Part shown: positions 19,373 to 32,906 of the stretch, one piece after another
How the letters are laid out: the number at the start of each line of letters is the position of its first letter
Numbering within the stretch: position 1 is the first letter of the stretch
DNA from: Deltaproteobacteria bacterium
GTDB taxonomy: Bacteria; JAMCPX01
NCBI GenBank assembly: GCA_023382265.1
Contig: JAMCPX010000022.1
Location: 1 to 64,000 of the forward strand
DNA: 64,000 nt
Reading direction: 5' to 3'
Position numbers and translations under genes: made by a program
The notes under the pieces: generated by a model
The model's input: only the letters and a program-made list of their open reading frames with translations
What the model was told of the DNA's origin: nothing
The model's database searches: none

Positions 19373-20722
19373 TTATCCCAAAGACGGTGTAAAGATAAAT
19401 GGGAATACTACATCTACAGTGCCGCCATTGTAAGGCTTTGGAAATATCCATCTTTTGATAACTATTGCAATACATTGTTCAACCTGAGGGGCGTTCATAG
19501 TTGAACGTTTTATCTGAGAGAGAGTAACAGAACCATCTGCACCTATAACAAAATGTACGGTAACCTTACCTTTTAATTCCGGATTATTCTTTAATCCCGT
19601 TTCATAGCAATACTTAATAGATGCAAGATTAGAATTTACAACCTGTCTGATTATATCGCTTGATAAACCACCTTTAACATTTAATCCCCCCTCTTCCCCG
19701 CCGGATATGGATGCGATTTTCCCACCCTTTTTTGTACCCAATCCAATATAACGGCCGCCGCCGCCAAGACCTGCGATACCTGCTCCACCACCTACAAGTC
19801 CGGCACCTCTTGCCTGCTTTAGTTCACCGGCACCGCCTGCAACTTGGAAACCGCTTATTCCCTTCAAAGCCTTATTAAGATTCATAGCAGGTGCTTGAGA
19901 TAAAACATCTCCTGTCGTTCCAGTTGATTTTCCTGTTGATACTATAAGCGCGAGCAATCCTTTTGAACTGACCTTTGCTACCATTTCTTGTCGTGTACGT
20001 GCAGCCGCCGGTTTACTACTTTTGCCTTTACCTGCTCCGCCACCCTCTTTGGGAACTTCTTTTTGCTCAGTCTGTTGCGGTGCTTGACCTTTAAATGTCT
20101 TTTTTGGCTTTGGTACCCGTATTAACAGCTTTGCCAGCCTTGGCGGTATGCCGCTAAGCTCAGTAGACGAATAAGCAGATTTTATAGTCAATGTATTAAC
20201 CATATACACAAAACCCGACATTATAATAGTCATCAAGATTAAAATTACATAAAATAATCTGGTATCTTTTGTTACATATTTCCTTTTTAACTCTCTTGGA
20301 AGCTTAGCCTTTTTGATCGTAATTGGTTTGGGTGGAGGCGGCGGGGGTACGGCAAATTCAAAATCTATATGTATATCGCCAAAATTCAGGCTGCCCTTTC
20401 CATCCTCTGATAAATAAATTACTGATTTCTTGATTTTTCCGCTTGTTCCATGCAGTCTTGCAAACTCCTTAAGATCAATAGTATTGTTACCTATCTGAAT
20501 AGTTCCGTTAAGCCATGATACAAGCCGCAGATAAAACACACCGCGCTTCTCTCCGAATAACCTGTATGATTTTGGCAAACCATTCTTACGGCATATTACA
20601 TCATTATTATTAGAAGTCCCCACTAAAAGTTTTTTATCGGTTAAATAAATAACATCAGGCCGTTCTTCACCCCTGTAAATAACCAATTTTGGTACAGCTT
20701 TTTTTGTAAGTTTATTAGCCAT
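19373..20722 (-). CDS. FHA-like/TonB-like protein with AgmX/PglI C-terminal domain
   Basis: 449 aa from ATG 20722 (MANKLTKK...), preferred because the longer frame overlaps the TolR-type gene. N-terminal 120 residues: a beta-rich FHA-like module in the cytoplasm (VIYLTDKKLLVGTSNNNDVI). Then a PPPPPPKP stretch, one membrane helix (FYVILILMTIIMSGFVYMV), a Gly/Ala-rich low-complexity periplasmic linker, and a C-terminal domain (DIIRQVVNSNLASIKYCYET, GKVTVHFVIGADGSV, IVIKRWIFPKP) of the AgmX/PglI type, which is TonB-like. Together with the TolQ/TolR genes it forms a motor-plus-transducer set, as GltG/GltJ do in Myxococcus gliding and focal-adhesion complexes. Exact orthology is not claimed. Confidence 0.8.
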   Translation of the reverse strand: MANKLTKKAVPKLVIYRGEERPDVIYLTDKKLLVGTSNNNDVICRKNGLPKSYRLFGEKRGVFYLRLVSWLNGTIQIGNNTIDLKEFARLHGTSGKIKKSVIYLSEDGKGSLNFGDIHIDFEFAVPPPPPPKPITIKKAKLPRELKRKYVTKDTRLFYVILILMTIIMSGFVYMVNTLTIKSAYSSTELSGIPPRLAKLLIRVPKPKKTFKGQAPQQTEQKEVPKEGGGAGKGKSSKPAAARTRQEMVAKVSSKGLLALIVSTGKSTGTTGDVLSQAPAMNLNKALKGISGFQVAGGAGELKQARGAGLVGGGAGIAGLGGGGRYIGLGTKKGGKIASISGGEEGGLNVKGGLSSDIIRQVVNSNLASIKYCYETGLKNNPELKGKVTVHFVIGADGSVTLSQIKRSTMNAPQVEQCIAIVIKRWIFPKPYNGGTVDVVFPFIFTPSLG

Positions 20723-20747
20723 AATTTTTATTAAAAAATATAATATA

Positions 20748-21242
20748 TCATGAGCCCTTCTGCATAACTTCAAGACTCATAGTACTATAACCTGCTTGAC
20801 CTGCCGTATACATGATCTTCTCAAGCAATTGAAACGGTATATTTTTATCTCCCTGTATCATCATTTCACCTTTAAATGGATTGGCACCTTTGCTGAGTTT
20901 TTCTAAATAAAGCCCCTTCTGTGCTTCTTTTTTCAAAGCATTGTATAGTTGCGGAAACAATAATGTTTGTGATGAGATATCAGCCTGATTGATTGTCTGT
21001 ACTTCCTTACCCTCTACAAGAATATAGCTCTCATTAACAGCAACGGTTAAAACGGCCTGCGGCTGTTTGTTTGACGTAGATGCAGGAAGTACGAGATCCT
21101 TTGCTGTTGCCCCGACGTAGCCGGTGGCAGAATAATTTTTAAGTAGAAATATTACAAGAACAGTAAACACATCTATCATTGGTGTCAAATTAAGGTTAGT
21201 TATTACGTGTCTATCTCTTTTTTTGCCTTTTATATAAGCCAT
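20748..21242 (-). CDS. TolR/ExbD-type proton-channel subunit (second copy)
   Basis: 164 aa. One N-terminal membrane helix with the conserved aspartate (LNLTPMIDVFTVLVIFLL) and a periplasmic domain ending in a helix-strand pattern (IPFQLLEKIMYTAGQAGYSTMSLEV). This domain is larger than in TolR. The start overlaps the stop of the first TolR-type gene by one base (TAATG), so translation is coupled. Two non-identical TolR subunits beside one TolQ is the AglQ/AglS-AglR arrangement of Myxococcus. Confidence 0.88.
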   Translation of the reverse strand: MAYIKGKKRDRHVITNLNLTPMIDVFTVLVIFLLKNYSATGYVGATAKDLVLPASTSNKQPQAVLTVAVNESYILVEGKEVQTINQADISSQTLLFPQLYNALKKEAQKGLYLEKLSKGANPFKGEMMIQGDKNIPFQLLEKIMYTAGQAGYSTMSLEVMQKGS

Positions 21243-21751
21243 TATCTAACAACCTCCCCTATTGAGATATTCGGGAATAATGCCATTTGTTCTTTAACCC
21301 CATTTTCTATTACAGTTGCTTGTCTTACAGTATCCATAACATGTATTAAGATATCATACTTTATATTCGGTTCTGAAAGTAATATGACATCCTCTGTGTC
21401 CGGATACATTTTTTTAATCTCAACAAGTTTGTCGGACAAAGCCTTATAATCGTACTCGTTATTCTTTAATGGAATCGGTGGTAAAATAGCGCCGCTTCCG
21501 CCTATTGTGAATCCTTTACTGTCTATTGCAACCGTTAAATTAATATTGTTTTTTTGCGGCTGCACCTTATTATTAACAACTGCGGGTGAATTCGCCGACG
21601 GCAGATTCACATTCAAGATAGCGGCAGGAGCTACAACAATCGTAGCTATAAGGAAGACAATGAGTGAAACAAGGAAGTCAATATAAGGAGTAAGGTTAAG
21701 CCCTAAGGCACCCCTATCTATATGACTTCGCGCAGATGGTTTCTCAATCAT
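21242..21751 (-). CDS. TolR/ExbD-type proton-channel subunit (first copy)
   Basis: 169 aa. N-terminal helix with conserved aspartate (LNLTPYIDFLVSLIVFLIAT) and a periplasmic ExbD fold (VILLSEPNIKYDILIHVMDTVRQA). Starts one base after the TolQ-type gene ends. With the partner subunits it would form a proton-driven channel in the inner membrane that powers the AgmX transducer. Confidence 0.9.
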   Translation of the reverse strand: MIEKPSARSHIDRGALGLNLTPYIDFLVSLIVFLIATIVVAPAAILNVNLPSANSPAVVNNKVQPQKNNINLTVAIDSKGFTIGGSGAILPPIPLKNNEYDYKALSDKLVEIKKMYPDTEDVILLSEPNIKYDILIHVMDTVRQATVIENGVKEQMALFPNISIGEVVR

Positions 21752-21752
21752 T

Positions 21753-22391
21753 TTAACCTCGTTTTAAATGTGTAATCAGGTTCATCATCTTTATAGATAA
21801 TTCATCTATTTCATCAATTATTGAGGTCTGTCTTGTAAATAAATATGAATGCGCAAGCATAAACGTTATTGCCATAAAGAGTCCAAATGCCGTATTATTC
21901 ATAGCCATTGATATACCGTACGCAAGTAAAGCAGCTTTTTGTGACGGATCAGCCGCTCCCACAGCAGCAAAAGCCTTGATAAGTCCGGTGATCGTGCCAA
22001 GTAACCCGAAAAGCGTTGAAACATTGGCAAGCATGGCAAGATAATGCGTGCGTTTTTCTACCACAGGTATTACCTCCAGTGCGCTTTCATCCACAGCATT
22101 CTGAATATTTTTGTCACTTTCATGGAAATTGATTATGGCCCGAAGGAATATTTTAGCTACCGGTGCTTTGATGGCTTCGCATAAAATTTTAGCCTCATTC
22201 ACCTTACCCTCTGTAAGGTACCTTTTAATCTTTTCCCAAAAAGTTTTACCATCAAGGTTCCATAGCAACACAAGAACTATGAACCTTTCCGCTATTATGG
22301 ATAAGCCAAAAACAGCTACAAGCAATATAGCATACATGAATGGCCCACCTTCTTTAAAAAAATTGATTAAAAAACTTAATGGCCCGCCCAT
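21753..22391 (-). CDS. MotA/TolQ/ExbB-type proton-channel protein
   Basis: 212 aa with three membrane helices. One is near residues 18-42, and two form the conserved C-terminal pair (LANVSTLFGLLGTITGLIKAFAAVG and GISMAMNNTAFGLFMAITFML). The TolQ/ExbB signatures LLGTITG and the Thr/Asn of the second pore helix are visible. The start overlaps the small exported protein gene by 16 nt. It is followed directly by two TolR-type genes, so this is the core of a proton-motive-force motor (family knowledge). Confidence 0.92.
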   Translation of the reverse strand: MGGPLSFLINFFKEGGPFMYAILLVAVFGLSIIAERFIVLVLLWNLDGKTFWEKIKRYLTEGKVNEAKILCEAIKAPVAKIFLRAIINFHESDKNIQNAVDESALEVIPVVEKRTHYLAMLANVSTLFGLLGTITGLIKAFAAVGAADPSQKAALLAYGISMAMNNTAFGLFMAITFMLAHSYLFTRQTSIIDEIDELSIKMMNLITHLKRG

Positions 22392-22684
22392 TTTTTCTCC
22401 TCCTCATTTTTAAAAGTTTTATTGTTTATTGTTTTATAAATCTTTTTAGAAAAATCTTTTGAATCAGCTTCAAGCGGATTCGCAGCATATATCTCTGTAG
22501 ATGACTTGTGAATAATATACATAGCCTGTGGTTTTGGTAACCTGCCTCTTATAAGAAAACCCGATAATTGTACATTCTCGTATGTAGATTTTTCTTTTTT
22601 ATTCTTTTCTTTCGCATAAATATTACCTGTTACAACGAACAAAGTTATAAGCAATAAGAGAATAAATCTTAAGGTTTTTCTCAT
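22376..22684 (-). CDS. small exported protein of the TolQ/TPR operon
   Basis: 102 aa. A signal peptide (residues 1-24, cleavage near NIYAKEK) is followed by a Lys-rich stretch, then YENVQLSGFLIRGRLPKPQAMYIIHK, a charged helical tail and KKWAGH. The central segment resembles short periplasmic proteins that accompany Agl/Glt-type operons (RGRLPKPQA motif), but I cannot name a family. Its start overlaps the upstream TPR gene as ATGA and its end overlaps TolQ, so it belongs to the same translation unit. Confidence 0.7.
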   Translation of the reverse strand: MRKTLRFILLLLITLFVVTGNIYAKEKNKKEKSTYENVQLSGFLIRGRLPKPQAMYIIHKSSTEIYAANPLEADSKDFSKKIYKTINNKTFKNEEEKKWAGH

Positions 22685-23679
22685 TGTTTTGCTCCATTGG
22701 ATGTAGTTGTAAAAGTTACGCTTATAGCATTTTTTAGATTTTTTATCTGTTTTTCAACTTCAATATTCCGTTTATCATTTCCCGGTAATAATGATCTATA
22801 CTTTTCCAAATACTTTATGGCTTCAGGATAATTTTTAAGGTAACCCTGTTCAAGGACAGAAAGATCATAATATGCTTCTTTGAGCCCGGGATCTATTTCT
22901 ATAGATTTCTTATATGCATAAAGTGCATCATTATAATTATTCATAAATCTATACGCCACACCAAGGTTTAAATAACAGTATGCGCAGTTTGGTTTTCTTA
23001 ATATGGCTTTACTATAATAGCTTATAGCATATTTATAATCACCGCCATCCGAATAAATGATGCCGATGTTGTTAAGTACTACAGGATCGTCCTGCTGTAT
23101 CTTAGCAGCTTTTGAGAATGACTCGAGCGCCAGATCCTTCCTTCCGAGTTTATAATATAAAATGCCGAGCTTGTTGTATATGTATGGATCATCCGGATAT
23201 CTGCTTTGAAGCTCTTTCAAAATAGATAATCCCAATTCCGATAACCCTATCTGCTGATAAGCATCTGCGATATTCTCAAGCATACTTTTATATTTGAAAT
23301 ATTTTTCGTTTAATCCCTGTATGAGTGTTATGGTTTGCTGAACATCCCCATCTTTTTCATAAGCGTTCGCTAATTCCATAACAACGTACGGGTTTCCATT
23401 GGTAGCTTTTAAACCAGCTTCGCCATAACTAATAGCCTGTTTAAAAGCCCCGGTCTCTGTTAGCCATTTTACAATATCTATGTATGCAAGCGTGAATGTA
23501 TTGTCATGCTTCAATAAATTCTTTAGTACGTCTACCGCCATATTTGTATTCCCTACCTTATACATTACCTCTGCTTTATGAAACTCGTCCATTCTGTTAA
23601 TCATATTATCGGCAAAAACAACAGATGGAATAAGTAGTATACACATTATAATTTCAATTGCAAAATGTTTTTTATACAT
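22681..23679 (-). CDS. exported TPR-repeat protein (332 aa)
   Basis: Signal peptide (residues 1-23, cleavage near VFADN). At least seven tandem 34-residue TPR units follow, clearest in YIYNKLGILYYKLGRKDLAL, VVLNNIGIIYSDGGDYKYAI, AYCYLNLGVAYRFMNNYNDAL and EAYYDLSVLEQGYLKNYPEA. It begins one base inside the stop of the 1071-aa TPR gene (TAATG). Likely a periplasmic scaffold of the TolQ/AgmX machine, similar in size and place to GltE-like proteins. That parallel is inferred from context. Confidence 0.8.
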   Translation of the reverse strand: MYKKHFAIEIIMCILLIPSVVFADNMINRMDEFHKAEVMYKVGNTNMAVDVLKNLLKHDNTFTLAYIDIVKWLTETGAFKQAISYGEAGLKATNGNPYVVMELANAYEKDGDVQQTITLIQGLNEKYFKYKSMLENIADAYQQIGLSELGLSILKELQSRYPDDPYIYNKLGILYYKLGRKDLALESFSKAAKIQQDDPVVLNNIGIIYSDGGDYKYAISYYSKAILRKPNCAYCYLNLGVAYRFMNNYNDALYAYKKSIEIDPGLKEAYYDLSVLEQGYLKNYPEAIKYLEKYRSLLPGNDKRNIEVEKQIKNLKNAISVTFTTTSNGAKQ

Positions 23680-26600
23680 TAGTCTGTCCCTAAATTTAAG
23701 GTAGTTATTCTATAGCCGTTATTCGACTCATAAAACAATAAAAACGGTCCCCTGAATCTTCTGATATACGATTCATTGTGTTCAGCAGTTATATTTATCT
23801 TCTCTGTTGATACCTGAAGTACAGGTGTCTTTAGTATATTCAATTCCCGATCCGGATATGAAAGACTGGCGTTGGGATCAAGTCTATCCAAACCTTCTTT
23901 TGCGTTAACAACATATTTATTTGTAATACCAAACTGATAAGCCTTGTTCAGCGTTTTTTTATAGATACCAATAGCGTTGTTCTTTACGGGTAAAACCTTT
24001 TCTGAAAGCACAGACATATAAATATTTTGTTCAGCATCACTTAAACCTTTCGGTACCGGTGAATTCATTACATCGGTATAAAACTGTTCATACGCGTTTG
24101 CATCAAGATACGATGCAGCAATTACGTAATGAGGCACCCCGAGATCAACTATACCTGTTAATATCTTGTTCAATTTTGCAAGCATATTGGTCTTCTCAGT
24201 AAAAACCTTTTGTAGCTTTGCGGTGGATTTAAACTTCAATGAGTTATAGAGTGCGAAGTACTCTTTTGCATTAAAAAAGCGTGCACCCGCATAGTAAAAG
24301 AGATATGGCGCATTTTCATTTGCATTAAGCTTGTCAAACTGTGATATTACCCTGTCATAGAATTTTTTAGCCTCTCTGGATGAATCAATCTCCAGCATCT
24401 TACCTGCTTTGAAACAAGCCTGAATCGATATTTTGACATCTGCAGAATTATAACATACATCTTTATAAATATTTAATGCCTTTCCCGTGTTCCCTGCTTT
24501 TGAATAGTCTTCTGCTGTAAATAAAGCGATCTTCGGTTTTTCATCTTTTGAAGCATACAGCTTTTCATATTTCCCGTATTCTGATGCGGCGTCACCATAC
24601 TGCCCGAGTTTCTCTTTTAGAATGGCAAGGTTAAACATTGCATCTTTTGCTTTATCACTCTCAGAATAATTATTAATGATTGACTCATACATCTCTATCG
24701 CTTTGTTAAATCTTAAAGCCTTTTCATACGATAATCCAAGTTCCAGCCTGGCAGAAGAAACAAATTTTGATGAGGGATAGTTTTTTATGAGTGTGTTGAA
24801 GACACTTCTTGCCTCTTTAAATCTATTTAGTTTATTAAGAACAACACCCATATTGTAAACCGCAGAATCAATGGTAATGGTTTTATCCTGCTGATTTGAA
24901 TTAATGTATGCGACGGCCTTTTTGTAATACCTGTATGCTTCTTTCCATTGAGCTTTATCGTAAGCCTTATTTGCCTTTACAAACCATAGTTTACCGAGCA
25001 CATTTTTAAGATACATGATGGCTTCATTGTTATTTCTTAAGATATTGTATTTTAACGTTTTTACAGCCCACGACTCAAGCCCTGTATCGTTTTTATCTGC
25101 TATGAATGCAGAAACAATATATTTAAGGGAATCCATGATAAGGCTGTCGTTAGGATACGTAAGGAGCAGTTTCCGAAACACTTTTATAGAATCCGTAAAA
25201 TAATCGGCTTTATATAGGACCTCTCCTGACTTGTAAAGCATCTTGGGGGAATCAGGATTTTCAGGATAAAGAGATACATACATATCGCACGCATTTACAA
25301 ATACGGTTAATTTATTATAGTATGTTGATGTGTCGGTGATATTCAAATTTTCTTCATAAGATTTGACCATATCGAACGCAGCATCACTTCTATATTTATT
25401 ATCCTCATACATAGGCGTTAGTGCTGCCTTACTGTAGAACTCACCCGCAAGTGCATAATTCTTTAACTGATAAGCTATGTCTGCATAAAAGAAATACACA
25501 ATGGGCAGCTCTTTATCACCAGGAAACTCACTAATATAGCTTTCAAGGATCTTTTGTGCACTGAGATACTGCCCGGTTGTTGGTTGTTTATGCTTTTGCT
25601 TGGGCAATGCAATAAGATCTTTTACAAGCGATAGCATCGCCTTCTTTACTAAATTTATAGCATATTTCTTTGTCGTATTCTCTTTTACACCCGCTAAAAA
25701 TGGCGAACCAACACCATAGTTTTGTATAATATTTAATCTTACGTCATTCGCGTTATTAAACTTACCTATCTTTTCGTACAACTCCATTTCACCATAAAGA
25801 GCCTCTAACGAGTCTAAGGTTTCGGGCGCATTTTGAGTTGTATAATTGTATGCCTGAATTGCAAAATCATAAAGGGCAAGCTTTGTATAAATTGCGCCTA
25901 TTTTATTCATAATCAGAGGGTAATACCTGTTCCATTTTATACTTTTTAGGAAGGCATCCGCATCCGTTGGAGGTTTGTTCTCTCCAAATATCAAGCTTAT
26001 ATACTCTATCGCTTCATTTTTCATGGACTCTCTTTTTTCTGAGCCGGCAGCCATATCTGCCCTGTTAACAACCTGGACAAAAAATGATAAAGCCTGATCA
26101 TATTTATTTTCTCTATAATATGTCCATGCTAATTTATAAAGTGCCATATCATAAAACTGGCTATTCTTATATTTCATTGCATTAGAATATGCATTCTCGG
26201 CAGAACTTAACAAATCATTATTAAAATAATACTCCCCTATCCTGAACCACACTTCCGGCATAAATGTTGATTCGGGAAACAGCTTTGTCAAAGTGATATA
26301 GCTGTCTGCAGCTTCTTTTTCGTTTCCCTCCTCACCGTAGCAGTAACCCATTAAATAGTAAGCCAGGGCGTCGTATTTGTTGTGAGGGAATTGGCTTAAA
26401 AAGCGTTTATAGAGCGATATAGAAGTACTATAGGAAATATGAGGCGGCGGGCCTGTCGATTTACCGGTTGATAGCCCTTTCTCAAATTGCCGCATGCTCT
26501 GCATAAATAGATCATTTGAATGCTCATAGTGCAGCTCAGCGAGCCTTAAGATAACATATGGTATCAGAGGTGATGACGGATACTTATTCAATATCAGGGT

Positions 26601-26894
26601 GAGACCCTTAATCTCATTTTGCCTTTTCTCGTGTTCAATCTTAACAAGACTTTCTGTTGCCTCTTTTAATGATTGCTTTGCACGATTAACAGCGTCTGCC
26701 TCCCTTCTTATGATAAAAGCATTCACATCTTTATTTAAATGTGATATCTGTTGTACTGTGTACAATATATCTATTCTCGTATCGATATCCGATTGAGAAT
26801 CACTAATCATATCCGCATTCAGTTCAGAAGTAAACGCAGAGAGGAACGCGAATACAATACATATCAATAATATAATGCGGTTTACAATATTCAT
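23679..26894 (-). CDS. very large exported TPR-repeat protein (1071 aa)
   Basis: Signal peptide at residues 1-27 (ELNADM). Nearly the whole length is TPR/Sel1-like helical repeats of YbgF type, for example PHNKYDALAYYLMGYCYGEE, STFMPEVWFRIGEYYFNN, AVYNMGVVLNKLNRFKEARS and SSARLELGLSYEKALRFNKA. The C-terminus (about the last 60 residues) is non-repeat and beta-rich. Size and context recall AgmU/GltD-like TPR proteins of Myxococcales, which form a periplasmic platform at adhesion sites (family knowledge). It is separated by one base from the 709-aa TPR gene and overlaps the next. Confidence 0.82.
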   Translation of the reverse strand: MNIVNRIILLICIVFAFLSAFTSELNADMISDSQSDIDTRIDILYTVQQISHLNKDVNAFIIRREADAVNRAKQSLKEATESLVKIEHEKRQNEIKGLTLILNKYPSSPLIPYVILRLAELHYEHSNDLFMQSMRQFEKGLSTGKSTGPPPHISYSTSISLYKRFLSQFPHNKYDALAYYLMGYCYGEEGNEKEAADSYITLTKLFPESTFMPEVWFRIGEYYFNNDLLSSAENAYSNAMKYKNSQFYDMALYKLAWTYYRENKYDQALSFFVQVVNRADMAAGSEKRESMKNEAIEYISLIFGENKPPTDADAFLKSIKWNRYYPLIMNKIGAIYTKLALYDFAIQAYNYTTQNAPETLDSLEALYGEMELYEKIGKFNNANDVRLNIIQNYGVGSPFLAGVKENTTKKYAINLVKKAMLSLVKDLIALPKQKHKQPTTGQYLSAQKILESYISEFPGDKELPIVYFFYADIAYQLKNYALAGEFYSKAALTPMYEDNKYRSDAAFDMVKSYEENLNITDTSTYYNKLTVFVNACDMYVSLYPENPDSPKMLYKSGEVLYKADYFTDSIKVFRKLLLTYPNDSLIMDSLKYIVSAFIADKNDTGLESWAVKTLKYNILRNNNEAIMYLKNVLGKLWFVKANKAYDKAQWKEAYRYYKKAVAYINSNQQDKTITIDSAVYNMGVVLNKLNRFKEARSVFNTLIKNYPSSKFVSSARLELGLSYEKALRFNKAIEMYESIINNYSESDKAKDAMFNLAILKEKLGQYGDAASEYGKYEKLYASKDEKPKIALFTAEDYSKAGNTGKALNIYKDVCYNSADVKISIQACFKAGKMLEIDSSREAKKFYDRVISQFDKLNANENAPYLFYYAGARFFNAKEYFALYNSLKFKSTAKLQKVFTEKTNMLAKLNKILTGIVDLGVPHYVIAASYLDANAYEQFYTDVMNSPVPKGLSDAEQNIYMSVLSEKVLPVKNNAIGIYKKTLNKAYQFGITNKYVVNAKEGLDRLDPNASLSYPDRELNILKTPVLQVSTEKINITAEHNESYIRRFRGPFLLFYESNNGYRITTLNLGTD

Positions 26895-26895
26895 G

Positions 26896-29025
26896 TCAAA
26901 TATGTTTTTCCATTTCCTTAAGTTTATTCATATTCTCTTTCAAACGATTTAAATATCCCTTAAGCGAATTGAGGTTCCCTCTTTCAATATTGATCGTGGT
27001 CGTCGTCGGGAGAGTTCCAACAATACCAGCTTCATGCTTTCTCATATTGGTATACTCATTTGTTATATTTCTTACATCCTTTTCACTTTCATTATACGCT
27101 TTATTAATTCGTTCAGTATATGCCTCTTTACTCAAGGTTCTTACATCAATAAAAGCTATAGTAGCTTGTGATGCAAGAACCTCCAGAGAGCCTGCAATAT
27201 TACTGTACACGTCTTTCAGAGTTAATCCCTCTGCATACTTCAGCCATACCGAGGTCAGACTGGTGTACGTATTGTTAAGTTCTAATGCTTCATTCGAAGC
27301 ATCTCTGTACTTGTAATCTATAAGGTTTTCCATTGTTTGTTTTATACCTGCAAGCATGCTCTCATCTTTCTGAACAGCATGCATAACCGGTTTAGTTTTA
27401 TCATTAAGCAAGCCGTCCTTCATTACCATCATCATTTGTAAATTCAAAGAATTAGTTCGTGCTTTACTTATGTCCCGCCCTAAATTCATCATGTTTTTGT
27501 ATGGATCATAAACGTAAAACGTGTTTTCATGCGCCTTCGCATAAGCCGGCAAATTGATGTCTTCCATGCTGGCAGAACTTAACGTCATAAAATATCGCAT
27601 CATCAATTCTCTTGACAGCCCGGCATAATCAAAACTTTTTAAAATGGAAATCTTGTCTTTCGCGCTGTTAAAGTATTCGGACAGAAGAATCCTCAACACC
27701 GAATCCTCTGCATCTTCAACACCAACGGAATAACCTCTGAGTAACTTATCATTTAAAAAAATATCTTGATCGAGTTGCATCTTAGACTCTTTTACAAAGC
27801 TGTTAAGGCCGTTCATATTCGGATACACCATCGCTGATTTATTATAAATGTTATTTATCTGATTATAAAAACTGCTGCTCCTTATAAAAGAGCCAACATT
27901 TGCTGCTGTCCAATTCTTGCTATTCTGCAATACATCTAATGCTGGATTGGTTTTTAATATATGAATAGCCTGATCATACTGGTCTATTACATCATTAAAA
28001 TAATCTGTTGCCTGATCATATCTTTTAAGTTTTACAAGTATATAACCCTTTAAAACCTTTGCCTTCAACTTATCGAGACTCGGCATTTTATCAGCTATAA
28101 GCTTATCTACAAGTTCTAACGCTTTTGCAAAATCATTCGCTTTCTGGGCAGCCCATGATCCTTCATAAAGAGCGTCTGTATAATAAACAGAAGTACTCGG
28201 TACTTGCTCGTAAAATGTCATGGCATCTTTATAATCACCCGCATCATATAATATCCTTGCAATTGAAAGCAGCGAAAGTATATAAGGCTCTCTATTCCTT
28301 GCCAAGGTCTTCTCATTTATTAATCCGGTAAATATATCCTGAGACTTCTTTTTTTTGCCCTGCTTTAACAGCGATACAGCCAACAGATAACGCGCTTTTA
28401 AACCCGTATCGGTATTATCCTTTATCTTAACAAAAAAGGTTTGTGCACTGATAGGATAACCAGCTAATAGATAAAACCATCCCGCTGAAAAATCAAAATC
28501 ATCGTCCGACACATCTCCCATCCTGTTTATGCCCGAATTAATAACATTCATAAGATTATAACTATGTTCTATATAAAAATATTTAATTCCTTCTAAAATC
28601 GCCGACCTCAGGAGTACTCTATTGTTGGTTCCTGAAATAACGGGAACAAGATAATGAATTGCGCTTAAAACATCACCAGTATGCCCAAAGCATTTTGATA
28701 TGGTAAAATATATTTCGTTTTTATTTTTTATGCTATAAAAATTGGTAGAATCGGTAACACCCATAAAATATTTTAATGGAGCTATCGACATGCTCCATCC
28801 ATTCATGTTCATATCCAGAGAATCGGTAACAGCTATAAGGTATTCCAAGGAAGCCTCATAGTTCCCCTGTTTATAAAACAACATACCCTTTTCCAATAGG
28901 GCCTGCAATGGCAGTATGTCCTTATTATAAGCCTCGGGATACTTGAAATCCGCAACCGCTTTGGATTGGGATAAAAACAAGGATATAGCCAAAAATAGTA
29001 TTAAATACAGAAATAATTTTTTCAT
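26896..29025 (-). CDS. exported TPR-repeat protein (709 aa)
   Basis: Signal peptide residues 1-25 (AVADFKY). The N-terminal half carries TPR-like helix pairs (LEKGMLFYKQGNYEASLEYL, ARILYDAGDYKDAMTFYEQV). The C-terminal half is long-helical with coiled-coil character, ending in NLNSLKGYLNRLKENMNKL. A region around residues 470-560 is non-repeat. Together with the two TPR proteins behind it, it makes a three-protein helical scaffold. No direct homolog is named. Confidence 0.78.
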   Translation of the reverse strand: MKKLFLYLILFLAISLFLSQSKAVADFKYPEAYNKDILPLQALLEKGMLFYKQGNYEASLEYLIAVTDSLDMNMNGWSMSIAPLKYFMGVTDSTNFYSIKNKNEIYFTISKCFGHTGDVLSAIHYLVPVISGTNNRVLLRSAILEGIKYFYIEHSYNLMNVINSGINRMGDVSDDDFDFSAGWFYLLAGYPISAQTFFVKIKDNTDTGLKARYLLAVSLLKQGKKKKSQDIFTGLINEKTLARNREPYILSLLSIARILYDAGDYKDAMTFYEQVPSTSVYYTDALYEGSWAAQKANDFAKALELVDKLIADKMPSLDKLKAKVLKGYILVKLKRYDQATDYFNDVIDQYDQAIHILKTNPALDVLQNSKNWTAANVGSFIRSSSFYNQINNIYNKSAMVYPNMNGLNSFVKESKMQLDQDIFLNDKLLRGYSVGVEDAEDSVLRILLSEYFNSAKDKISILKSFDYAGLSRELMMRYFMTLSSASMEDINLPAYAKAHENTFYVYDPYKNMMNLGRDISKARTNSLNLQMMMVMKDGLLNDKTKPVMHAVQKDESMLAGIKQTMENLIDYKYRDASNEALELNNTYTSLTSVWLKYAEGLTLKDVYSNIAGSLEVLASQATIAFIDVRTLSKEAYTERINKAYNESEKDVRNITNEYTNMRKHEAGIVGTLPTTTTINIERGNLNSLKGYLNRLKENMNKLKEMEKHI

Positions 29026-29031
29026 AAAGAT

Positions 29032-29667
29032 TTATTTTATCCCGGGTGGCTGCCTTACAGACTGCTCAAATTTTACACTCGTCCTTGCAGGGGTGTCTCC
29101 TTTACCTGTGTCGATACAAACTATATCCAGATGGGTAAAAACACCGGGCCTGGCATCAAGAGTACCCGTGGCAGTAAAGTTATAATTCTTCCCCTCACCA
29201 ATACCGAGGAAACCGGATGTTTGAAGAAGTACATAAACCTCTACGCTATGCTTACCGGGAACTATGGGGCCGTTGAAAATCATATCTTTTGCCTTTGCGA
29301 GTGACGTGCTGCCAGGAATATTTAATTTAAAACCATCTATGTAAACAGCTATTTTTTTGGGTACAAAATCACCGTGCGGGAAATATGTATTAAGATTAAT
29401 CTGAACAGGTGCACCTTGTGATATACTATAGACAATGCCTTCACCAAATAACAATAATCTTCCTTTTAGTTTAATCATCTGCCTGTTCAATTCACTTAAA
29501 GTAGCATCAATATCCTTCATATTGTGTGTGTCGTAATAGCTTGAGAAACTGTCCGAACTTAAGAGGCTATCACCTGCACAAAAAACATTTAACGGATTCA
29601 AAAGAAAAAAGATAAACAGCAGAAAAGTTGAATATATGTATTTATGTTTAAATATGTGTTTCATCAT
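29032..29667 (-). CDS. exported protein of unknown function (211 aa)
   Basis: Signal peptide (hydrophobic residues 14-31, cleavage near VFCAG; a Cys at the end could be lipidated). A short helical region (MKDIDATLSELNRQMIKLKG) precedes a beta-rich domain: IAVYIDGFKLNIPG, PGKHSVEVYVLLQTSGFLGI, YNFTATGTLDARPG. This looks like an Ig/PEGA-like surface or binding module. Twelve nt behind the barrel-like protein gene; probably part of the envelope machine. Not recognised as a known family. Confidence 0.7.
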   Translation of the reverse strand: MMKHIFKHKYIYSTFLLFIFFLLNPLNVFCAGDSLLSSDSFSSYYDTHNMKDIDATLSELNRQMIKLKGRLLLFGEGIVYSISQGAPVQINLNTYFPHGDFVPKKIAVYIDGFKLNIPGSTSLAKAKDMIFNGPIVPGKHSVEVYVLLQTSGFLGIGEGKNYNFTATGTLDARPGVFTHLDIVCIDTGKGDTPARTSVKFEQSVRQPPGIK

Positions 29668-29679
29668 TTTTTATCTCTC

Positions 29680-31197
29680 CTATTTTTTTAGTACAAATTC
29701 AAGCATTGTTTTTTTACCTTCTGCAATAATTACTTTTGATACCACAGGTTGATATCCCTGTGCAAGGATTGTTATGTAATAAATCCCGGGCTTTAAGTTT
29801 GTAGAAAAATACCCTGTTGACGGATCCGTTAAAACGTCTTCAACGTTCCACTTATCAAACTTAATTGTAGCAAGAATTGGTTTACCCTGCGCATCCACAA
29901 CCCTGCCTATAAAGCTGCCAAATGAATAGATTCTCTTCAAATAAAAGTTTTGAGTAATACCCTGATGTGGTAAAGCAAGCCTTGTTACAGTAACACTCTC
30001 ATAACCATTTTTTCGTGCCTCTATTGTGACAGGTCCTATATTCAACAAACATGATTTATAAGTACTCGTCGTTATTCCTGTAATAATATCGGAACATTTA
30101 ACATTAGTACCCTTTATTGAAATGATAGTGCGCGGCAATATTTCTTTTGTTTTTGCATCATAAACGCTACCCGTAAACCATCCGTAAGGTAATGTATTTT
30201 TTGGCACCAGAAGTTGAAGATTGGGCATCACCCTTTTAAGCCTGAAAACTGCCTTCATGAATGAAGGTTTAAATATATAAGCCAGGGAAAAATATAAATC
30301 CCACGCAGGCACCGCTCTTATATTGTGTCCGATTATATTCTGTACAGAACTCAGTCCGATATCAACGGCGGTATCTATTGTTAATGGTTTTATTGGCTGA
30401 ATCCTGATTCCGGGGGTAATCCTCTGGGGGCTGTCCCCAAAACTTTCTATGAGTATTTTCCTTAAATTATACTCTATAAACGGAGTTACAAATGTGTTCG
30501 GGATAGGGGCTAATATATCGAATGAAAAAAGATATTGATCCGACGGATAGATACCAAGAGCAGTTTTTATGTCGGGTGGAGTAAGATAGCTGTTAGATAA
30601 AAGTTTATCCGAGTTATCGTAATGATAACCTAAATTCACATTCAACATTAGTGGTAATTTTGTATCTCTTCTTGCATCATAGCTAAAAAGCAAAAGGCCG
30701 TAAAAACCGGTAGCTGAAAAATTATAAAATAGTTGCTGGATCTGACTCATTGTTTGTATACTACCGCTGACACCTATACTGAACACAGAATTGATCTTGT
30801 AAGCATATTTTAGTCCAACCCTAAAATCCGCAATTGATTCCAAGAGGCTATAAGAACTATACTGAGGATAATACTGTTGTGTACTTGATGCAATCACACC
30901 TGCAAACCCTTCAAGACCTTTGTATAAACCGCCTGTAACAAATCCAAAACTACCAATATTCTCTGTGTTTGAGGCATTGGTCATAGACAGCTCGTTTGAA
31001 TAATAGTAATTCATACCTCCTATAAGACTAAAACTCCCCGGGTCGAGTGAGTATGGAATACTAATTCTCAGTAGGCCGGTTCCGCCAGTTGCAGAAGGCG
31101 CATCTATAACAAACTGCCCAGCCGCATAACAAATATTTGATAAACCGGCTAACACCAGAAAAAATATTATACCTATAAATAATTTTATTTGTCTCAT
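29680..31197 (-). CDS. outer-membrane beta-barrel protein with carboxypeptidase-regulatory-like repeats
   Basis: 505 aa. Signal peptide residues 1-25 (CYAAGQF). Residues about 30-330 alternate short amphipathic strands with Tyr/Phe ends (GLKYAYKINSVFSIGVSGSI, MLNVNLGYHYDN, TPFIEYNLRKILIES), typical of a barrel. The C-terminal 170 residues hold two beta-sandwich units of CarboxypepD-regulatory type: FTGSVYDAKTKEILPRTIIS and SFIGRVVDAQGKPILATIKF, the second ending in ITILAQGYQP. It is the outer-membrane-facing candidate of the operon, playing the part GltA/B-type barrels play in Myxococcus. That role is inferred from order, not homology. Confidence 0.7.
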   Translation of the reverse strand: MRQIKLFIGIIFFLVLAGLSNICYAAGQFVIDAPSATGGTGLLRISIPYSLDPGSFSLIGGMNYYYSNELSMTNASNTENIGSFGFVTGGLYKGLEGFAGVIASSTQQYYPQYSSYSLLESIADFRVGLKYAYKINSVFSIGVSGSIQTMSQIQQLFYNFSATGFYGLLLFSYDARRDTKLPLMLNVNLGYHYDNSDKLLSNSYLTPPDIKTALGIYPSDQYLFSFDILAPIPNTFVTPFIEYNLRKILIESFGDSPQRITPGIRIQPIKPLTIDTAVDIGLSSVQNIIGHNIRAVPAWDLYFSLAYIFKPSFMKAVFRLKRVMPNLQLLVPKNTLPYGWFTGSVYDAKTKEILPRTIISIKGTNVKCSDIITGITTSTYKSCLLNIGPVTIEARKNGYESVTVTRLALPHQGITQNFYLKRIYSFGSFIGRVVDAQGKPILATIKFDKWNVEDVLTDPSTGYFSTNLKPGIYYITILAQGYQPVVSKVIIAEGKKTMLEFVLKK

Positions 31198-31230
31198 TAG
31201 AGGCTTCTATAATTTAATATTAGTCTTATG

Positions 31231-31794
31231 TCAAACATTATGGATCCTGTCTATAACATCAATAAGCCTTTTTCTAAACTGTTCCTTATCCGTGCTGTTC
31301 CCTTTATTTAAATAAGCTGCAGGTTTTGTAAGATTCATTATCTTTTTAAAGTTGTCATCGCATTTTACAACAGAGAAAAATACAATGGGTATTTTTTTTG
31401 TTTTCTTTAAACCGGTTTCCATTGCCCTCATTGTTCTCGCTGCGTCTATCCCGCTAATAATCGGCATATTAACATCAAGTATTGCAAGATCCACATCCAA
31501 GTTGTTTTTAAAAAGTTCACTCAACCGCGACAGGAAAGCCCTTCCGTTTTCACTTTCTATAAGATCGATAGAGATCCTACTGTTTATAAGTGCTTCAGCA
31601 ACCTGCTTTCTCATTATTGTGGAATCATCTGCGATAATGATTCTGTTCAATACTTCCTGTTTATACACTTTTTTAGAAAGATCTAGTCCGCATTCGGAAC
31701 AATGGATGCGTTCCTCTCCGTTAGAAATCATTACGAATATATCAACCGATTCGCCGCAGCTTGGACAAAAAACTTTCGGTACTTGCGAAGACAT
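31231..31794 (-). CDS. response regulator with N-terminal zinc ribbon
   Basis: 187 aa. The N-terminal zinc ribbon has Cys10-x2-Cys13 and Cys32-x2-Cys35 (VFCPSCGES...RIHCSECG). From about residue 50 a CheY-like receiver follows, with the acidic pair (IIADDSTIMRKQV), the phospho-acceptor Asp (DLAILDVNMPIISG), Ser/Thr (IVFFSVVK) and Lys (AYLNKGN). There is no output domain, so it signals by protein contact, with the ribbon as a possible partner site. It is squeezed between dnaJ (5 nt) and the barrel gene (33 nt), coupling the chaperone genes to the envelope-machine genes. No kinase is nearby. Confidence 0.88.
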   Translation of the reverse strand: MSSQVPKVFCPSCGESVDIFVMISNGEERIHCSECGLDLSKKVYKQEVLNRIIIADDSTIMRKQVAEALINSRISIDLIESENGRAFLSRLSELFKNNLDVDLAILDVNMPIISGIDAARTMRAMETGLKKTKKIPIVFFSVVKCDDNFKKIMNLTKPAAYLNKGNSTDKEQFRKRLIDVIDRIHNV

Positions 31795-31799
31795 ACGTT

Positions 31800-32906
31800 T
31801 TACTGGAAAAGATCCTTTACTTTATCAAAGATACCTTTTGCATTATTTTGTTTATTTTCTTTTAAGATTTCATCAAATTCTTTTAGAAGCTCCTTTTGTC
31901 TCTCTGTTACATATTTTGGAACCTCTATATGAACTTTTACAACCTGATCTCCTTTTCTCCGATCATAAGGACTCGTTACGCCTTTATGTTTTAATATGAA
32001 TGATTGTCCTGAGTTTGTTCCTGGGGTGATTTTAAGTTCTTCCTCACCATATAAAGTCGGGATTTTTATAGTATCACCAAGAACAGCTTGTGTAAAAGAA
32101 ATATTCGTATCAAGTATAATATCATGACCGTCTCTTTTGAATACCTGGTGATCTTTTACTTTTATTATTATATGCAGATCACCGGAAGCTCCGCCGTTAT
32201 AACCTTCACTACCTTTACCCTGTATTCTTAAAACACTCTCGTTGTCAACACCCGCCGGAATATTTATTTTTATTTTATCCTGCCTTCTTATCCTGCCCGT
32301 TCCTCCACAATTCCTGCATTTATCTATTATTTCATAACCCGCACCATTGCATACATTACATGTTCTTGTAACGGTAAGGAAACTCTGCCTATAATTTATT
32401 TGTCCTCTTCCTCCGCAAGTCCTGCATGTAATTGGTTTTGTACCCGGTTTTGCACCCGTTCCCGAGCATACATCACACAAGCCTATGCGTTCAATGGGGA
32501 TTTCCTTCTCTGTACCTAAAACAGCCTCCTCAAATTCTAATTCAAGAATAGTTTCCACATCTCTCCCGCGAACCCTTTTATTGGAAGCACCCCTTGTACC
32601 AAAAAAGTCACTAAAAACATCACCTATCAAATCTTCAAAGATCGTTGTCGAACCGAACAAATCATCGTAAGATGAATTCATCCTTTCAAAACCGTGTCCG
32701 TACTTATCATACTGTGCTTTTTTTTCAGCATTACCCAGTACGCTGTACGCTTCATTTATTTCCTTGATCTTTTCTTCCGCTTCTTTATCTCCCGGCCTTT
32801 TATCAGGGTGATATTCCAATACCAATTTTCTATAAGCCTTTTTTATATCAACATCGCTGGCATCTTTGCTGACGTTGAGTATCTCGTAGTAATCTTTTTT
32901 CTTCAC
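31800..32906 (-). CDS. dnaJ: chaperone DnaJ
   Basis: 368 aa. GTG start at 32906 overlapping the dnaK stop as GTGA. J domain with EYHPDKRPGD (HPD), a Gly/Phe-rich segment that is short, four zinc-binding CxxCxGxG repeats (CDVCSGTG, CRTCGGRG, CNVCNGAG, CRNCGGTG), and the C-terminal substrate-binding domain. It activates DnaK ATPase. Confidence 0.97.
   Translation of the reverse strand: MKKKDYYEILNVSKDASDVDIKKAYRKLVLEYHPDKRPGDKEAEEKIKEINEAYSVLGNAEKKAQYDKYGHGFERMNSSYDDLFGSTTIFEDLIGDVFSDFFGTRGASNKRVRGRDVETILELEFEEAVLGTEKEIPIERIGLCDVCSGTGAKPGTKPITCRTCGGRGQINYRQSFLTVTRTCNVCNGAGYEIIDKCRNCGGTGRIRRQDKIKINIPAGVDNESVLRIQGKGSEGYNGGASGDLHIIIKVKDHQVFKRDGHDIILDTNISFTQAVLGDTIKIPTLYGEEELKITPGTNSGQSFILKHKGVTSPYDRRKGDQVVKVHIEVPKYVTERQKELLKEFDEILKENKQNNAKGIFDKVKDLFQ

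Follow-up and report, generated by a model that had tools for sequence, protein, structure and literature searches.

A block of eleven genes in the DNA analysed here (the window: 64,000 nucleotides of contig JAMCPX010000022.1 from a deltaproteobacterium) encodes, judged by its proteins and their order, the Glt/Agl core complex described by Luciano et al. (2011; PMC3169522). It is probably a complete core complex of the class that carries a 211-aa protein (b211), equipped with a lineage-specific outer-membrane part, and it probably moves or organises an outer-membrane or surface component rather than serving in gliding. A sequence-only reading of the window had called the block AglRQS/Glt-like, and the TolQ tree, the GltG models and the conserved gene order all agree with this. 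As in the core of Luciano et al., AglR, two TolR, GltC, GltD, GltE and GltG are found in one locus; the window differs in adding a GltF-like protein, b211, a zinc-ribbon receiver protein and a lineage-specific 505-aa protein.

The eleven ORFs are co-directional, occupy positions 19373-31794 of the minus strand and are separated by -16 to +33 bases. The dnaJ gene ends 5 bases before the response regulator gene, and purN starts 71 bases after the GltG gene. All the genes of the earlier reading are present on one strand and in the order it gave. They are listed below from the start of the block (signal peptides were assessed by eye, from the sequence only).

31231..31794, minus strand: response regulator with zinc ribbon and receiver, 187 aa, block start (Pfam Response_reg, 43 bits; weak zinc ribbon)
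29680..31197, minus strand: 505-aa exported protein, putative outer-membrane barrel with carboxypeptidase-regulatory-like domains (Pfam CarboxypepD_reg)
29032..29667, minus strand: b211, exported, marks Glt clusters of the b211 class (41/45 loci have a homologue upstream of GltD)
26896..29025, minus strand: GltC-like TPR protein, 709 aa, exported (NCBIfam GltC model under its cut-off, E 1.8e-6; its place between b211 and GltD is conserved)
23679..26894, minus strand: GltD-like TPR protein, 1071 aa, exported (myxobacterial paralogues matched by phmmer at 1e-81, 2e-52 and 5e-31; GltD tree)
22681..23679, minus strand: GltE-like exported TPR protein, 332 aa (TPR; NCBIfam GltE, 37.7 bits, cut-off of 225 not reached; conserved position)
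22376..22684, minus strand: GltF-like small exported protein, 102 aa (family profile; GltF in 42/45 loci)
21753..22391, minus strand: TolQ/AglR-type motor subunit, 212 aa (Pfam MotA_ExbB; tree clade 100/100)
21242..21751, minus strand: first TolR (AglQ/AglS-type), 169 aa, Asp present (Pfam ExbD; Asp alignment)
20748..21242, minus strand: second TolR (AglQ/AglS-type), 164 aa, Asp present (Pfam ExbD; Asp alignment)
19373..20722, minus strand: GltG-like transducer with one transmembrane helix, a flexible periplasmic part and an AgmX/PglI TonB-like C-terminus, without FHA (NF033760, NF033768)

Pfam recognises MotA_ExbB once, ExbD twice, CarboxypepD_reg in the 505-aa protein and TPRs in three proteins, of 332, 709 and 1071 aa. 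For the GltG-like gene, a start at ATG 20722 (449 aa) is more likely from the sequence than one at TTG 20773. The GC content of the cluster tracks that of its host (37% versus 37-40% for the window; 56% versus 57% for genome G003, described below), so a recent foreign origin of the block is not indicated.

Dozens of genomes, across phyla, share the order b211-C-D-E-F-(Q-R-R)-G. Linkage was scored in those 45 loci of the named collection in which GltD has enough flanking sequence on either side: b211 accompanies GltD in 41, GltC in 39, and GltE, GltF and GltG in 42 each, while the motor is linked in 14 and the 505-aa protein in 1. Failure of the TPR and barrel genes to stay linked had been named beforehand as an argument against the Glt-like assignment; the TPR genes and GltG do stay together, in 39 to 42 of these loci. 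The 211-aa protein thus marks a widespread branch of Glt clusters, the b211 class. In an unrelated genome (G098, L060:8516-15407), grpE-dnaK lies upstream of a GltF-Q-R-R-GltG cluster, as it does in the window.

Clusters with a GltA/B-type barrel (Nfs and four others, with Glt) have their GltD proteins in a clade of their own with a support of 99. The b211 clusters are without such a barrel and carry a GltG of about 450 aa. In the quick GltD tree, the window protein falls outside this gliding/spore clade (SH-aLRT 99) and within a deep b211-class set together with proteins from G022, G051 and G056, all from other families; the deep branches of this tree are weak (SH-aLRT 41). The contrast between the two classes (b211 on one side, GltA/B and FHA on the other) hints at the parts that gliding and spore-coat machines gained.

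The sequence-only reading had considered the whole outer part of the machine (the 505-, 211- and 102-aa proteins) to be new. This holds for the 505-aa protein, which is lineage-specific, but not for the other two. A cluster-family profile places the 102-aa protein in one family with the ORFs at the NfsF position (4.7e-9) and the GltF position (1.1e-6), making it a GltF homologue, and the 211-aa protein is the b211 found so widely above. The AF2 model of b211 (pLDDT 80.6) consists of a long helix and a transthyretin/Ig-like beta sandwich, with weak fold matches. Sequence comparison of b211 with solved structures returned only coiled-coil-like chance matches.

The GltG-like protein scores 107 bits with NCBIfam NF033768 (AgmX/PglI C-terminal domain; cut-off 40). 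With NF033760 (GltG) it scores 171 bits against a cut-off of 650, that is, under the equivalog threshold, compared with 1033 bits for the genuine GltG of a myxobacterium (G035). An FHA-like part had been proposed for this protein, but a search as permissive as E<=10 detects no FHA domain in it; the gliding GltG of the myxobacterium, by contrast, has one at 1.9e-14. Comparison with solved structures matches the TonB C-terminus only, and weakly, and a plasmid search for GltG gave no match. GltA/B barrels, sought with a profile (A5) derived from Nfs- and Glt-type barrels, number five in the myxobacterium G035 and none in the window's own genome (G000, 95.8% complete), G003, G005, G022, G051 or G056. 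Full-length GltJ was found in the myxobacterium only; G000 yields the GltG C-terminal domain and short partial matches.

Myxococcota also have clusters of this kind. Their b211 cluster commonly lies directly after mglBA: among 100 loci scanned, 33 have MglB and 35 have MglA. The pair mglB-mglA is directly upstream of a b211-class Glt cluster at L045:7517-8595 and at about 33 other loci. The mglBA-linked cluster of Myxococcaceae shares with the window the order b211-C-D-E-F-G, the lack of GltA/B and a GltG of about 450 aa without FHA. It differs in that it adjoins mglBA and has its Q-R-R motor elsewhere; the operon of the window includes the motor but not mglBA. Going by gene order and by mglA, which we take to be MXAN_1925, this cluster is probably G4/MXAN_1922 of M. 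xanthus. Motility was unaffected by a polar mutation in MXAN_1922, which encodes the GltD of G4 (Luciano et al., PMC3169522). The position of mglBA ties the gliding polarity switch to a Glt cluster that is apparently dispensable for gliding.

The first alternative to be considered is a true gliding machine like Myxococcus Agl-Glt, in which the 505-aa protein replaces GltA/GltB/GltH. The window does share a homologous motor, GltG and GltC-F with the Myxococcus Agl-Glt gliding and Agl-Nfs spore-coat machines (PMC3858216, PMC4488436), and both its TolR keep the Asp, as in two myxobacterial QRR motors. It differs from these machines in the absence of detected GltA/B or full-length GltJ, in a GltG without FHA and in the clade of its GltD. 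The genome also encodes an MglA with 78% identity to the myxobacterial one, but MglA is equally present in G002, which has no cluster, and mglB and mglA (L233:4406-5511) lie away from the Glt block here. Gliding in the absence of GltH, I, J and K has been reported for Bdellovibrio (PMC3169522), so missing parts do not exclude gliding. Because GltD lies outside the gliding clade, GltA/B, full-length GltJ and FHA were not found and the MXAN_1922 mutant is motile, gliding is nevertheless not the default reading, and we regard it as unlikely. The job of the operon would most likely be to move or organise an outer-membrane or surface component (a polymer, an adhesin or a protein patch) rather than to support Myxococcus-like gliding. 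Our guess is that the thing moved is a surface polymer or an outer-membrane protein.

Of the three proteins proposed as a new outer part, only the 505-aa one is lineage-specific. Its orthologues, at 63-65% identity, are restricted to G003 and G005. Its full length can be aligned with that of a 658-aa paralogue from its own genome (34% identity), and in this it resembles OmpA-type outer-membrane proteins with carboxypeptidase-regulatory-like repeats. These have a C-terminal peptidoglycan-binding domain, which the 505-aa protein is without: the paralogue carries a C-terminal OmpA domain and the 505-aa protein ends before it. Similar proteins occur in G022, G051 and G056, and the full-length relatives scanned have a C-terminal OmpA domain, except for a 523-aa one in G022. 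Further related proteins are encoded in the window's genome (C34:6876-8399, L186, and several other contigs), the best of them with an OmpA C-terminal domain. Residues ~20-330 form a putative beta barrel; the AF2 model, built from three sequences, is unusable (pLDDT 37). The protein is not alignable with the GltA/B profile, and b211 and the 505-aa N-terminus were rejected as GltA/GltB barrel homologues (hhalign probability ~0.5%). An iterated profile of the 505-aa protein reached up to 790 bits with myxobacterial proteins, but the domain coordinates showed that only the carboxypeptidase-regulatory-like repeats were matched, and these hits were set aside.

The limits of the block can be judged from related genomes. 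G003 and G005, from another genus of the same family, have the whole block, including the response regulator and the 505-aa gene, after dnaJ. In G001, G002 and G006, dnaJ is followed by a gene of 346-373 aa with no Glt gene between, and in G003 this gene stands directly after GltG. The contig of G008 ends shortly after dnaJ, and the next ORF is not a Glt gene. A search of G002 (99% complete) for GltG found none, with FHA matches only. The empty site can be summarised as follows.

Window 31794-31800, compared with L229, L230, L231 and L048: in related genera the gene after dnaJ is the one that stands after GltG in G003

The block was therefore gained or lost as one unit, which speaks for the response regulator and the 505-aa protein being part of it. 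An alternative is that these two are accidental neighbours and that the functional unit runs from b211 to GltG only. In its favour, 505-like genes are present in only 1 of the 45 Glt clusters, and the two genes are followed by gaps of 33 and 12 bases rather than overlaps. Against it, G003 and G005 carry both genes at the corresponding site, and G001, G002, G006 and G008 lack them along with the rest of the block. In the unrelated G051 and G056, too, a homologous response regulator stands before the cluster (phmmer, E 8e-36 and 7e-38), and we consider accidental neighbourhood decidedly improbable. The block is a natural presence/absence polymorphism between genera, and is compact, with its own motor and a self-contained outer part.

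The motor was compared in a TolQ tree of 58 rows. The window TolQ forms a clade with 100/100 support with other cluster-linked TolQs and two myxobacterial TolQ-TolR-TolR motors, apart from the three other TolQ/ExbB of its own genome; the branching with Tol-Pal or ExbBD that the sequence-only reading had named as grounds for abandoning its proposal is not seen. AglRQS should be one of these two myxobacterial motors and its M2 paralogue the other; which of them is AglRQS we infer solely from closeness to Glt clusters. The genome (2.63 Mb, 95.8% complete) encodes four MotA/ExbB proteins. Besides the window TolQ there is one in a Tol-Pal-like locus (L195), one in a TonB-ExbBD-like locus next to a 747-aa protein (L194) and one in a further ExbBD pair (L193), these three assigned from gene order and sequence rather than from model matches. 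That the operon itself serves outer-membrane stability or uptake, as a Tol-Pal-like or ExbBD/TonB-like system, is highly improbable: its MotA_ExbB/ExbD domains and the YbgF-like TPR scores of the 1071-aa protein would suit such a system, but separate loci of both kinds already exist in the genome, the window TolQ branches away from the L195 and L194 proteins with full support, and the tolQ/exbB equivalog cut-offs are far from reached (33 bits against an ExbB/ExbD cut-off of 206). The tree does not place TolQ in a Tol-Pal clade with TolA, TolB and Pal adjoining, the Tol-Pal-like locus being elsewhere; neither does the operon combine ExbBD equivalog scores with an adjoining TonB-dependent receptor, and the TonB-type locus is also elsewhere.

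Two different TolR/ExbD proteins stand beside TolQ, each of which retrieves its own orthologue set. The pore motifs noted earlier are confirmed: each TolR has its Asp, and TolQ has the pore Thr. We aligned 28 TolR1/TolR2 pairs: the window (20748-21751) and 27 loci (L048-L050, L052, L056, L058, L060, L062, L067, L070, L078, L090, L092, L097, L105-L108, L117, L126, L129, L130, L135, L137, L138, L203 and L204). Eight pairs are Asp/Asp (the window, G003, G005, both myxobacterial motors and three others), 19 are Asn/Asp and one is Asp/Ala, these counts being inflated by near-identical rumen copies. Thus 20 of the 28 motors have one subunit without the proton-carrying Asp (Asn in the first TolR in 19, Ala in the second in one), and no pair is without it in both. 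Mapped on the TolQ tree, the Asp/Asn state of the first TolR shows at least four changes. This pattern is compatible with TolR1-TolR2 heterodimers that need one obligatory Asp, although one TolR may instead form a dead regulatory homodimer. Whether AglQ and AglS form homo- or heterodimers is described as not known in a review (PMC9389320). The pattern bears on this question and makes motor stoichiometry testable.

Driven by proton flow that requires Asp28 of AglQ, the Agl motors set Glt or Nfs complexes and surface glycan in motion, and AglQ with the D28N change is reported to support neither gliding nor sporulation (PMC3858216). GltA/B/C form an outer-membrane/periplasmic subcomplex (PMC4488436), and it has been proposed that GltG/GltJ pull through the wall like TonB and that GltF resembles a TonB box (PMC9389320). 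By homology to Agl-Glt, the operon should work likewise, with the 505-aa protein as the part pulled on. Ion flow through the TolQ-TolR1/TolR2 motor would drive conformational cycles in GltG, whose TonB-like end would reach through the peptidoglycan and pull a TPR relay (GltC/D/E with GltF and b211). The relay would in turn engage the 505-aa protein in the outer membrane, and gating of the motor, from the cytoplasmic side, would fall to the receiver protein. Since it is without the peptidoglycan anchor of its OmpA-type paralogues, the 505-aa protein could be moved. A fuller scheme, which we put forward only tentatively and hold to be somewhat doubtful, is a b211-class machine outside the gliding branch in which a recruited OmpA-type protein lost its anchor so that the motor drags it, with a heterodimeric TolR1-TolR2 axle needing one Asp, as in its relatives.

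A minor observation concerns an additional TPR protein of 360-390 aa with the GltD C-terminal motif, which is encoded upstream of b211 in G056, G022 and G051. It looks like a shortened GltD paralogue and is found at the following positions.

L057:6794-7903, short TPR protein like a shortened GltD paralogue
L050:11829-13004, the same
L054:13776-14852, the same
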